Positions 8,104 to 21,432 of a stretch of 22,359 nt of DNA are shown in pieces. Within the stretch, counting starts at the first letter, position 1. Each line of letters starts with the position of its first letter. The stretch covers positions 1-22,359 of the IMG/VR virus record IMGVR_UViG_3300010935_000113. One strand, written 5' to 3'. The notes under the pieces were generated by a model. The model was not told the origin of the DNA and ran no database searches. It worked only from the letters and a program-made list of their open reading frames with translations. Made by a program: the position numbers and the translations under genes. This DNA is from a virus.

Positions 8104-8745
8104 TCAGATGCCCCCGTAAATAACTGTGCCCACCGGGTGCATGGCCCGGCTCTGCTCGTCCTTGGCACGGGCGCAGTAGGCGTCGTGCTGCGCACGGTAC
8201 TTGGCCTCGGCCTTGGGGTCGTAGGTCTCGGTATCCTGGATGCCGTAGGCCAGGTGCTTGACCCAGTACGTCAGGTAGCGGTGGTGTTGGGGGGCGATCT
8301 CGAAGTCGTCACCTGCGGCCACGTCGACGGGCAGGCGGAAGGTGCGTAACTCGACGGTGCTTGCCACGTTTGGCTTGGGCCAGGCGCGCAGGGTGTCGGC
8401 CTCCAGCCCGGAGATCAGCGCTGACAGCGGCCCTTGGTGCCCGTCGAACTTCATGCGCTGCTCGATCATTTTTTCGACCGGCACGATCGGCACCGGCACG
8501 CCGGTGACAGAGTCAGTGGCGGCGCGAATTTTAAGGATGCGCGGGTCCAGGGCGTACCACTCGGTGCCGTCGGCCTTGACGAGCACCTTGAAGCTGCGCG
8601 CGTCGGCGATGCCATAAGTGTCACGACAGAACTGCTTCTGGGCTGCGTCGATGGCACCGTAGGCCCAGGCGTCAGACCAGAGGTACGGGGCCTCGAGGTC
8701 AAAGACCTCGGTGCGGAACAGGGCCAGCAGCTCTGTGGTAGTCAT
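8104..8745 (-). CDS. Head-tail connector (adaptor) candidate
   Basis: The protein has 213 residues. It begins with helices in MTTTELLALFRTEVFDL, then LWSDAWAYGAIDAAQKQFCR with TYGIADARSF, WYALDPRILKIRAA, a central part with LRAWPKPN, and a helical C-terminus KHLAYGIQDTETYDPKAEAKYR. This mix of N-terminal helices and the YIDxAQ-like motif is typical of phage adaptor proteins that attach below the portal ring in podoviruses. Its position after portal, scaffold, capsid and decoration genes agrees. Start is 3 bases after the stop of the preceding gene. The call rests on recognised pattern and order rather than on a search. Confidence 0.65.
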   Translation of the reverse strand: MTTTELLALFRTEVFDLEAPYLWSDAWAYGAIDAAQKQFCRDTYGIADARSFKVLVKADGTEWYALDPRILKIRAATDSVTGVPVPIVPVEKMIEQRMKFDGHQGPLSALISGLEADTLRAWPKPNVASTVELRTFRLPVDVAAGDDFEIAPQHHRYLTYWVKHLAYGIQDTETYDPKAEAKYRAQHDAYCARAKDEQSRAMHPVGTVIYGGI

Positions 8746-8748
8746 GGC

Positions 8749-9123
8749 TTAGGCCGCGCGGTCTTGCGTGAACTTGAGCCAGGCAGCGTCGCGCTCCTTG
8801 TTGTTCAAGCCCGACCAGCCCAGCTCCTTGGCCAGCACGGCGTTGTGGGGTATCCCCACGGCGCTGAAGTCGTTGCGGCTGTTGCGCAGCACAATCTTCT
8901 CAAAGGCGGCGAACAGTGCTTGCTCACGATCTTTTGGCACGGTCGGTTCTTTGGGCGAGCCGTCATCGACAGGCTCAGGGATTTCCTCGGTAGGCACGAC
9001 GCCTTGAGCGATCAGCTCGGCGTGCATCTGCGGGGGGCAGTAAGAGGGTTTGCCTTTGACGAAACTGACTGAGCGCCCCGAAGTGGAGACAACAGTCATG
9101 TTGCGCGGTGCAATGTATTCCAT
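8749..9123 (-). CDS. Head-region protein of unknown function
   Basis: The protein has 124 residues. The N-terminal half is beta-like (MEYIAPRNMTVVSTSGRSVS, then FVKGKPSYCPPQMHAELIAQG), as in short phage proteins that sit between capsid and connector genes. A Pro/Glu-rich linker (residues about 44-62) leads to a helical C-terminal part with AVLAKELGWSGLNNKERDAAW. A head completion role would fit the position. The C-terminal part could be a small helix-extension-helix fold, but I cannot show this. An AGGA ribosome site precedes the ATG. Confidence 0.65.
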   Translation of the reverse strand: MEYIAPRNMTVVSTSGRSVSFVKGKPSYCPPQMHAELIAQGVVPTEEIPEPVDDGSPKEPTVPKDREQALFAAFEKIVLRNSRNDFSAVGIPHNAVLAKELGWSGLNNKERDAAWLKFTQDRAA

Positions 9124-18017: not shown

Positions 18018-18044
18018 GAACTTCCGAACTTCCAAACTTCCAAC
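18016..18044. repeat. 8-bp direct repeats, three and a half copies
   Basis: CCGAACTT (18016-18023), CCGAACTT (18024-18031), CCAAACTT (18032-18039) and a partial CCAAC follow each other without gaps. The array lies between two hairpins. Short spaced repeats like this can bind a regulator or a replication initiator, but at 8 bp the pitch is less than one helical turn, which argues for a flexible or non-classical binding mode. Confidence 0.55.
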
Positions 18045-18061
18045 GGCCAGCAAGCTGGCCG
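18044..18061 (+). promoter_or_regulatory. Conserved hairpin, copy A
   Basis: CGGCCAGCAAGCTGGCCG folds into a perfect 7-bp stem with a CAAG loop (8 bp if the loop closes to AA). The same element with one base pair swapped occurs at 19320-19337. Both are followed by GTA and then by a GCTTGAGC motif and a ribosome site, so they look like homologous leader modules. Confidence 0.65.
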
Positions 18062-18114
18062 TAATGCAGGTGCTGCTTGAGCAAGTTCGCTCTTTTTTCA
18101 CTCTGGAGTTAATC

Positions 18115-19313: not shown

Positions 19314-19319
19314 ATACCA

Positions 19320-19351
19320 CGCCCAGCAAGCTGGGCGTACCGCTTGAGCGG
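19320..19351 (+). promoter_or_regulatory. Conserved hairpin, copy B, with second hairpin
   Basis: CGCCCAGCAAGCTGGGCG (19320-19337) differs from copy A at two positions that pair with each other, so the stem is kept. It is followed by GTA and by CCGC-TTGA-GCGG (19340-19351) with three U residues after it. The GCTTGAGC core of the second hairpin also follows copy A. A strong AAGGAG ribosome site comes 18 bases later. Confidence 0.65.
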
Positions 19352-19667: not shown

Positions 19668-19952
19668 ATGTCCCCCACCATCACCAGGCTGCCCTATATG
19701 GGTATGCACAAAGAGCCCGTTAGGCCTGAACACAGACTTAACTCGAGGTCCATCAACTTCTCGTCCTTACATGAGTACGAAACCGAGCGGGTCGCACAGT
19801 GGCTTGGATCAACGGCACTGCGCGACCCATGTCAGGTGCTTATCGCCAAAGTCGAGCACCTCTCTCAAATCCTGGGCTGCTCGGAGGCCGAGGCTGAACG
19901 CGTACTCTTCAAGAGACTAGCACCTCAACACGTACACAAAATCGGGCAATAA
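19668..19952 (+). CDS. Small early protein of unknown function
   Basis: The protein has 94 residues. The ATG at 19668 follows GAAAGG; another overlapping frame starting at 19654 has no comparable site. The N-terminus is polar (MSPTITRLPYMGMHKEPVRP), followed by a helix-rich part: LHEYETERVAQWLGSTALRD, then VLIAKVEHLSQILGCSEAEA and ERVLFKRLAP. The second half could be a small helix-turn-helix, given a helix, the turn LGCS, and a second helix, but no family is clear. The 189-base structured spacer begins directly after the stop. Confidence 0.6.
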   Translation: MSPTITRLPYMGMHKEPVRPEHRLNSRSINFSSLHEYETERVAQWLGSTALRDPCQVLIAKVEHLSQILGCSEAEAERVLFKRLAPQHVHKIGQ

Positions 19953-20078
19953 AACCCCGGCGATTTGCTGCATTGAATGTCAGCGCAATGCAGCAGAACA
20001 CAAGACTGACATCGGCTACCTTGGGGCGTTGCTTGCCGAACGCAGGTCATAACGACCAGCCCCTACCTTCACGAACCA
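19953..20078 (+). ncRNA. Structured RNA with H-type pseudoknot
   Basis: The region has no credible gene. Stem 1 is TGCTGCATTG (19966-19975) with CAATGCAGCA (19986-19995), 10 perfect pairs. The loop segment ATGTCAG (19977-19983) is fully complementary to CTGACAT (20006-20012), 7 pairs. This leaves a 1-base first loop and a 10-base A-rich last loop (GAACACAAGA), the geometry of classical H-type pseudoknots. Downstream, GGGG (20023-20026) can pair with CCCC (20060-20063), enclosing CGTT/AACG (20027-20042) and GGTC/GACC (20045-20057), a possible three-way junction. GGGG can also pair with CCCC at 19955-19958, so alternative folds exist. Function is unknown; it may be a leader switch or a small RNA. 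Confidence 0.55.
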
Positions 20079-20135
20079 CTGGTGAGTTCGCCGACATCTC
20101 GTTAAAAACTCGGCATTCTTAACTACAACTGAAAG
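20079..20135 (+). repeat. 57-nt leader repeat, copy 1
   Basis: This element is 56/57 identical to 20409-20465 and ends just before the start of the 78-residue gene. It contains GGTG-AGTT-CGCC (a small hairpin with one U-G pair), then CCGA (20091-20094) pairing with TCGG (20110-20113) and stacking on GTT/AAC, leaving a 6-base bulge. It ends in ACTGAAAG, the ribosome site. It may be a promoter plus leader used twice. Confidence 0.8.
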
Positions 20136-20141
20136 TACATC

Positions 20142-20378
20142 ATGGCAGCAGAAAATTTCACGATCCCCGAAAATGGTTCGGTATCATGGACATGGGCAGG
20201 AAGAAACTACACTATGTCCTATGACGATTCTAGGCAGCTGGATAGCCTTTATACCGGGGGGCATCCTTCCGGACCGACCCACGAAGAGAAAATAGCCATC
20301 ATGCATAAGTGTCAATGGGACACCTGCATGGATGATGATATAGGCTGGGTACATTGCCGCAGCCCACGAACCCGCTAA
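20142..20378 (+). CDS. Small early protein between two repeat copies
   Basis: The protein has 78 residues. It begins MAAENFTIPENGSVSWTWAG, followed by RNYTMSYDDSRQLDSLY, then EEKIAIMHKCQWDTCMDDDI and GWVHC, with three Cys and an Asp cluster that could bind metal. GAAAG precedes the ATG at 6 bases. The gene lies exactly between two near-identical 57-nt elements, so it could be lost or duplicated by recombination and may be an accessory cassette. No family is recognised. Confidence 0.65.
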   Translation: MAAENFTIPENGSVSWTWAGRNYTMSYDDSRQLDSLYTGGHPSGPTHEEKIAIMHKCQWDTCMDDDIGWVHCRSPRTR

Positions 20379-20408: not shown

Positions 20409-20465
20409 CTGGTGAGTTCACCGACATCTCGTTAAAAACTCGGCATTCTTAACTACAACTGAAAG
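20409..20465 (+). repeat. 57-nt leader repeat, copy 2
   Basis: This copy differs from copy 1 only at 20420 (A instead of G at 20090). The change turns a U-G pair into U-A in the GGTG-AGTT-CACC hairpin, so the fold is kept. It precedes the 319-residue gene with the same GAAAG ribosome site and the same ATCATGGCA start context. Confidence 0.8.
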
Positions 20466-20472
20466 CACTATC

Positions 20473-21432
20473 ATGGCAACACATACTGTAACCACTTTGT
20501 CCGGCAATACCTTCGACCTGCCAAGGTATATCGGTGAAATCCCTCAAGTCGAGCTGGCTGCGGCGCTCATGCAGTCTTTGGCGAAAGCCGCTGACTTCAC
20601 CATCATCAACGCTGCGAGGGGCTTGTTCAAATCCGTACGCGCTGAAATCTGGGAAAACACCTGTTCACTAGACTCAATGGCTGAACTGAACAGTGCTCTG
20701 AACGAGGCGGCCTTCGCCGAAACTTGTTTCCATGAAGCGGGATCAAATAACTCTGGATTTATTGAGACAATCCAATCCCTCTGGCCTCTGCGCCAAGATT
20801 GGATTGATCAAGCCAAAGAGTTAACGAGCCTCACTAATGATTGGAATGGCAACCCGCGCACGTTCAGTCCGGTTGACATTGAGGAACAAATCACAGCACC
20901 TGTAGTCAATACATCAAAGAAAACGATCGGGCGCATCACACGCCAGGTTGAACGCAAGGCTGTCGACCTCGGCATCGATGAGGAAGACAAGGCACGCGCA
21001 ATTATCAACCGCATCAAGCGTGAGGCCTTCAACAATGCCGATATGGCCAACGCCATGAAGGAGACATCAAGTGGGGTTCTGCACATGCTGTACGCAGCGG
21101 TCAAAGTCAACGCTGACCCGGAAGTAACCGAAACAGTCGGTGAGAATCATAGTAGTGAGGGTGTATGTAATCGCAAGGCTTACAGCGCTGGCAAGCCTGA
21201 CTTCCATCTGCTGCCGTACAGCCTGCGCACCAAGCTAATCAGCGACATCATCCGCACTTGCGAACTGCAAGCCGAGTGGGCATGCAGGAACAATAGATTA
21301 AGCGACGACGAATTCGATACCTTCGATATGTTGTGCAGCAAGACGGTCAAGGTGCTGCGAGGCATCATCAACAGCCCGATGTACAAAACAGCTGCGGCTG
21401 TTGCTGAATCATCTGAAGCAATGACCGGCTAA
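20473..21432 (+). CDS. Early protein of 319 residues, unknown function
   Basis: The sequence is mostly helical. It starts MATHTVTTLSGNTFDLPRYI and continues with ELAAALMQSLAKAADFTIIN and SLWPLRQDWIDQAKELTSLT. The middle has KKTIGRITRQVERKAVDLGI then EEDKARAIINRIKREAFNNA, a basic, charged helical region. Residues about 240-300 read YSLRTKLISDIIRTCELQAE and later FDMLCSKTVKVLRGIINSPM. There is no signal, membrane segment or known catalytic motif. Being next to a primase and the largest early gene here, it may act in DNA replication, for example as an initiator or loader, but that is inference from place only. A strong hairpin follows its stop. Confidence 0.7.
   Translation: MATHTVTTLSGNTFDLPRYIGEIPQVELAAALMQSLAKAADFTIINAARGLFKSVRAEIWENTCSLDSMAELNSALNEAAFAETCFHEAGSNNSGFIETIQSLWPLRQDWIDQAKELTSLTNDWNGNPRTFSPVDIEEQITAPVVNTSKKTIGRITRQVERKAVDLGIDEEDKARAIINRIKREAFNNADMANAMKETSSGVLHMLYAAVKVNADPEVTETVGENHSSEGVCNRKAYSAGKPDFHLLPYSLRTKLISDIIRTCELQAEWACRNNRLSDDEFDTFDMLCSKTVKVLRGIINSPMYKTAAAVAESSEAMTG

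Follow-up and report, generated by a model that had tools for sequence, protein, structure and literature searches.

A covarying double-pseudoknot RNA in operon spacers of at least two unrelated groups of phages

Introduction

The autoregulatory pseudoknot of gene 32 in phages T4 and T2 is an H-type fold in the 5′ leader of a phage gene, located 67 nt upstream of the start codon in T4 (PMC3014915). The element reported here likewise contains an H-type pseudoknot in a 5′ leader, but differs in having a second pseudoknot and extra helices, in preceding several different genes and in lacking any known single-strand-binding protein gene; the downstream gene, which in a gene 32-type operator encodes the binding protein and travels with the element, here varies between members. 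A second point of comparison is the put RNA of phage HK022, which the parts of PMC9378689 drawn on here describe as working in cis, in RNA form, from the leaders of operons and as indifferent to the gene that follows. By the same account, put RNA binds the polymerase and by itself suppresses pausing and termination. The leader position of our element and its independence of the next gene would fit a put-like RNA by analogy; however, there is no known sequence relation between the two, and those parts of the source do not describe put as a double pseudoknot (PMC9378689).

GOLLD and ROOL are structured phage RNAs with pseudoknots, often encoded near tRNAs (PMC12286853). Both are far larger than the present element, and their covariance models match none of its members. 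In the pistol ribozyme a hairpin loop pairs downstream, further stems are present and one stem encloses a pseudoknot strand. No such enclosing stem exists here, nor is there an Rfam match. A type III antitoxin RNA (ToxI) is followed by a ToxN-type RNase gene; none was recognised in the window, where the proteins neighbouring the element have no Pfam or PHROGs match at 1e-3. Covariance models of Rfam 15 gave no match to the element in the window or in the eight other members (L037, L318, L072, L364, L449, L380, L377 and L038), nor in four leaders of the 319-aa gene gp319 (L018, L035, L047 and L058; see Table 1). The RNA is uncatalogued in Rfam 15 and, our literature search having been brief, may have been described elsewhere.

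Results and Discussion

The window, i.e. the whole stretch of DNA analysed, comprises 22,359 nucleotides (positions 1 to 22,359) of the virus record IMGVR_UViG_3300010935_000113, whose portal protein shares 42% identity with its counterpart in Pseudomonas phage KPP25. In the window, the terminase genes are encoded on the − strand, while small genes form a block on the + strand. The element does not open the + strand block but comes ~2 kb into it, between a 94-aa gene (19668-19952) and a 78-aa gene, all on the same strand (Table 1). No sigma-70-like promoter or terminator was identified close by downstream of the element on the + strand, which fits the element being part of a longer transcript. 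Elsewhere in spacers, hairpins share a constant GCAAGC top on varying stems (window 18043-18062 and 19319-19338; L001 4323-4342; ACGGCCAGCAAGCTGGCCGT, ACGCCCAGCAAGCTGGGCGT, ACGCCCGGCAAGCCGGGCGT).

Table 1. Positions of the RNA element and neighbouring features within the window.
Feature	Position	Strand	Remarks
CCCC run	19955..19958	+	5′ of S1; might pair instead with 20023-20026 (as a switch or a closing helix P0), suggestive only
S1 5′ strand	19966..19975	+	TGCTGCATTG; pairs kept via double changes
S2 5′ strand, in S1 loop	19977..19983	+	Conserved core 19979-19983 GTCAG
S1 3′ strand	19986..19995	+	CAATGCAGCA; pairs kept via double changes
Loop 3, A-rich	19996..20005	+	GAACACAAGA; AAGA end in window, L072, L318
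S2 3′ strand	20006..20012	+	Core 20006-20010 CTGAC
PK2 linker strand, UCGGC	20012..20016	+	100% of pairs form, with a U-A to C-G double change; base 20012 may belong to either S2 or PK2
Helix A 5′ strand, GGGG	20023..20026	+	On inspection, L318 has GCG/CGC in place of GGG/CCC
Hairpin B 5′ strand, TTGC	20029..20032	+	Register homologous to other members
PK2 loop strand, GCCGA	20035..20039	+	
Hairpin B 3′ strand, GCAG	20042..20045	+	
Hairpin C (GGTC-ATAAC-GACC)	20045..20057	+	Window and L072 only; one double change (G-C to A-U)
Helix A 3′ strand, CCCC	20060..20063	+	
Leader repeat D1	20079..20138	+	Stem GCCGA/TCGGC (20090-20094/20110-20114) and ribosome-binding site
78-aa gene	20142..20378	+	Directly 3′ of element; no known family
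gp319, 319-aa gene	20473..21432	+	KPP25 gp29 fold; homologues directly downstream of RNA in L318, L037, L038

The first pseudoknot can be read directly from the DNA. Stem S1 is a perfect 10-bp pairing, and seven bases of its loop (ATGTCAG) are the exact reverse complement of a downstream segment (CTGACAT) with which they would form S2, leaving loops of 1 nt (19976), 2 nt (19984-19985) and 10 nt (loop 3). These features, like the location between two small genes, had been noted in a preliminary description whose coordinates proved right to the base. It had further held that chance would rarely give this arrangement. In agreement, a stem of at least 10 with a helix of at least 7 in this geometry occurs twice per 7.8 Mb of strand scanned, one occurrence being the window's own, and thus ~0.006 would be expected in the window. 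At a looser setting (stem at least 8, loop helix at least 6) there are ~10 independent places per 2.8 Mb of strand sequence. The plain folding energy is ordinary (z −1.2), which is what one would expect of a method unable to draw pseudoknots.

The element was found in nine phage contigs, the window and eight others, from at least two unrelated groups. Four of the eight are kin of the window's phage, being KPP25-like podoviruses (L072, L318, L037 and L038), and four are distant members without recognisable kinship to it (L364, L449, L377 and L380). A terminase search yielded 80 loci of related phages, L072 among them. The element of L072 was found by plain similarity, being 76% identical to that of the window, and that of L318 with a model which took stem 2 into account and left stem 1 out; L318 carries a third, different stem 1. 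These two are free of selection bias for stem 1, unlike the other members; L037 and L038 came from structure-aware scans that asked for S1 and S2 themselves. Moreover, viral contigs were scanned for the linker-loop motif and 100 motif-bearing loci were ranked with a model built from the five kin members only. This model picked out L380, L364, L377 and L449, and the next score (20 bits) fell in coding DNA.

Neither the nearest relative (L001/L007) nor the leader of KPP25 gp29 carries the element, which is therefore dispensable; the gp29 leader offered a terminator-like hairpin only. KPP25 itself (L347) has a 676-nt unannotated gap at 8220-8895 in which a GCGTGGCACTAAGGCTCCAGC..TGTTACGAAATTTTTT repeat occurs three times. 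Similar pseudoknots in the gp319 leaders of L018, L033, L035 and L047 were not counted as members. On the minus strand of L047, at ~4250, there is a possible divergent member with a loop TGGTTCGT complementary to a downstream ACGAACCA over 8 bp, followed by ACCGGC. Other candidates were rejected: matches of the motif scan in viral and bacterial contigs, screened with a model termed R1, were mostly coding and due to chance; a candidate in L071 lay inside a gene; and whole-genome searches with models R1 and R2, two of which sampled nearly identical genomes, gave weak matches (L317 and L464-L466) that were all within long reading frames. Phage and plasmid records, searched for similarity to the regions from the window, L072, L449 and L364, returned short chance matches only.

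Across the nine members, the five loop-proximal pairs of S1 are formed in 45/45 cases, as are five pairs of S2, with double changes at every pair position of both stems. When strands are swapped between members, only 35% (S1) and 45% (S2) of pairs form. Most stem bases have changed among the nine members while the double-pseudoknot shape is kept. A count over seven members gave 80 of 84 pairs, compared with a shuffled mean of 40.7. Between L072 and the window, 25 pairs can be compared: 17 are the same in both, 5 differ in both bases, 1 differs in a single base and 2 are broken. Here stem 1 is much altered in sequence yet paired, and stem 2 shows a T-A to C-G change alongside the double change in hairpin C. 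Stems in the four distant members were placed by search or by eye, an inserted hairpin in the loop being allowed in L380 and L377. Variation among relatives without compensatory changes would have counted against the fold; the opposite was found. The comparison of the nine sequences is decisive: it bears out the proposed H-type pseudoknot, as part of a leader element or small RNA lying in the spacer of an operon, and shows that the fold is real and conserved by covariation.

We also found a second pseudoknot (PK2), in which the linker following S2 would pair with the loop of the next hairpin. In members the linker reads YCGGC and the loop of hairpin B GCCGR. PK2 is supported because the U-A pair of the window and L072 becomes C-G in L318, L037 and L038; the four distant members add no evidence for it because they were found through the CCGGC/GCCGG motif. 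PK2 and hairpin B together are 94% paired, compared with 83% when shuffled and 26-48% when slid. Hairpin B, placed by homology, has the loop TTGCCGAAC, which pairs back to the linker; this register replaces the one first given, CGTT/AACG (20027-20030/20039-20042). In L318 and L037, helix A contains an AUAAA internal loop. The three-way junction previously drawn at 20023-20063 can form in the window and in L072, where GGTC/GACC becomes GATC/GATC. However, hairpin C is missing from L318 and, by inspection, from the other members, the register of hairpin B differs and its loop is engaged in PK2; the junction is only partly homologous. A switch had also been envisaged, in which the GGGG of helix A pairs instead with the upstream CCCC run. 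This pairing can form, and a CCC run lies at most 20 nt 5′ of the first stem in 6 of the 7 members checked, and most of these runs could base-pair with GGG in helix A; we regard the switch as suggestive only.

Some ~60-100 nt past the pseudoknot domain, L318, L037, L449, L377 and L380 carry a 3′ hairpin of the form [stem]A..GUAA[stem], which is looser in L364. The stretch GCCTyAGAGCGTyAyAGCTTGGGC is common to L318, L037 and L380. The same hairpin form is seen shortly 5′ of many gp319-type genes (L018, L025, L042, L047, L058, L066, L318 and L037) and is a separate conserved leader element of these genes. In the window, its place is occupied by the 60-nt repeat D1, to which it may be equivalent. 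A second copy of D1 (20409-20468) is 97% identical to the first; the copies stand ahead of two consecutive genes, as though the 78-aa gene had arrived with a copied leader. Further sequence features were seen near these genes: upstream of gp319 in L047, L066, L068, L069 and L075 the preceding gene ends in a Shine-Dalgarno-like stretch and ATGTAG, and in L037 and L038 a ribosome-binding site with a reading frame of 4-5 codons lies just 5′ of the RNA.

The element is always co-directional with the next gene and in kin often 30-100 nt ahead of it. That gene is the 78-aa gene in the window, gp319 in L318, L037 and L038, and others in L364, L449, L377 and L380. The analogy first drawn with the gene-specific site of T4 gene 32 finds no support, and since the following gene differs between members a gene-specific switch is unlikely. 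In L364 the element is preceded by a tRNA gene and followed by one other gene, a confirmed small terminase gene and the large terminase. In L449, the small-terminase position downstream is taken by a helix-turn-helix gene, and a large terminase follows; a search of phage records for this small-terminase-like protein found none. By position and sequence character alone, the element is probably upstream of terminase genes in L377 and L380 as well. NinG is encoded two genes upstream of the element in L380, near the place of the lambda late-operon leader. Genes of L449 and L364 taken for late antiterminators match no family, and that label is consequently unproven.

We favour, at even confidence, a structured leader RNA that acts in cis to affect expression of the operon, irrespective of the next gene. 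The RNA would span ~100 nt in the window and ~190-210 nt, including the 3′ hairpin, in other members. Downstream of the S1/S2 pseudoknot, the linker would pair with the loop of hairpin B, and the folded RNA, as part of the operon mRNA, would act on expression of whatever follows. By analogy with HK022 put, the nascent RNA may fold behind RNA polymerase and help it past pauses or terminators. Such antitermination is the most specific and the most likely single action, although it is a guess that commands only a minority of our confidence overall; mRNA processing or protection, or an effect on translation of the next gene, are alternative cis actions. Counted against the cis-leader reading are the position inside the block in the window and the absence from L001/L007 and the KPP25 gp29 leader.

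The main rival, to which we give appreciably less credence, is a free-standing phage RNA (a trans-acting small RNA, a decoy or an ornate-type RNA-only assembly) encoded in operon spacers and processed from the transcript. Conservation and independence of any particular gene are just as compatible with an RNA that is released and acts in trans. The compact two-pseudoknot fold with variable insertions and the lack of a fixed downstream gene would suit such an RNA, as would the tRNA gene in L364, GOLLD and ROOL often being near tRNA islands (PMC12286853). However, there is no promoter- or terminator-like signal round the element in the window, its strand and often close spacing are tied to the next gene, and it is far smaller than GOLLD or ROOL and without an Rfam match.

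An improbable alternative is a translational operator bound by gp319 itself, in the manner of the T4 gene 32 pseudoknot. The gp319 family is conserved (43 related loci) and its genes follow the element immediately in L318, L037 and L038. Against this, the 78-aa gene, flanked by the two D1 copies, separates the element from gp319 in the window, in L072, where the order differs, other sequence or genes likewise intervene, and gp319 is not nearby in L364 and L449, the two distant members tested. Moreover, the predicted structure of gp319, all-helical (pLDDT 83.6) and resembling a KPP25 protein, has no solved relative and no recognised RNA-binding fold, and suggests no function. A role in packaging together with the terminase, like that of phi29 pRNA, seems to us very doubtful for the element: it lies ~0.5-4 kb from terminase genes in both phage groups, but proximity of phage genes is weak evidence and close relatives with a similar terminase have not kept it. 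Lastly, a chance structure in free spacer, to which the many hairpins in spacers of these phages and the ordinary folding energy might point, is refuted by the compensatory changes in the nine members and deserves next to no weight.

Conclusions

The presence of the element in KPP25-like podoviruses and in phages with lambda-like gene order, together with its absence from close relatives, suggests a transferable regulatory or effector RNA. More speculatively, and with the odds in our view against it, this may be a class of phage RNA not described before, built on a double-pseudoknot core and moving between unrelated phages, which would programme RNA polymerase, or some other machine of the host, from operon leaders with no phage protein involved. 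As stems, loops and nine sequences are defined, function is directly testable. With it, phage biology gains a structured RNA that is well supported and uncatalogued. Were the element to prove an antiterminator that needs no protein, it would join HK022 put as one of few such RNAs.
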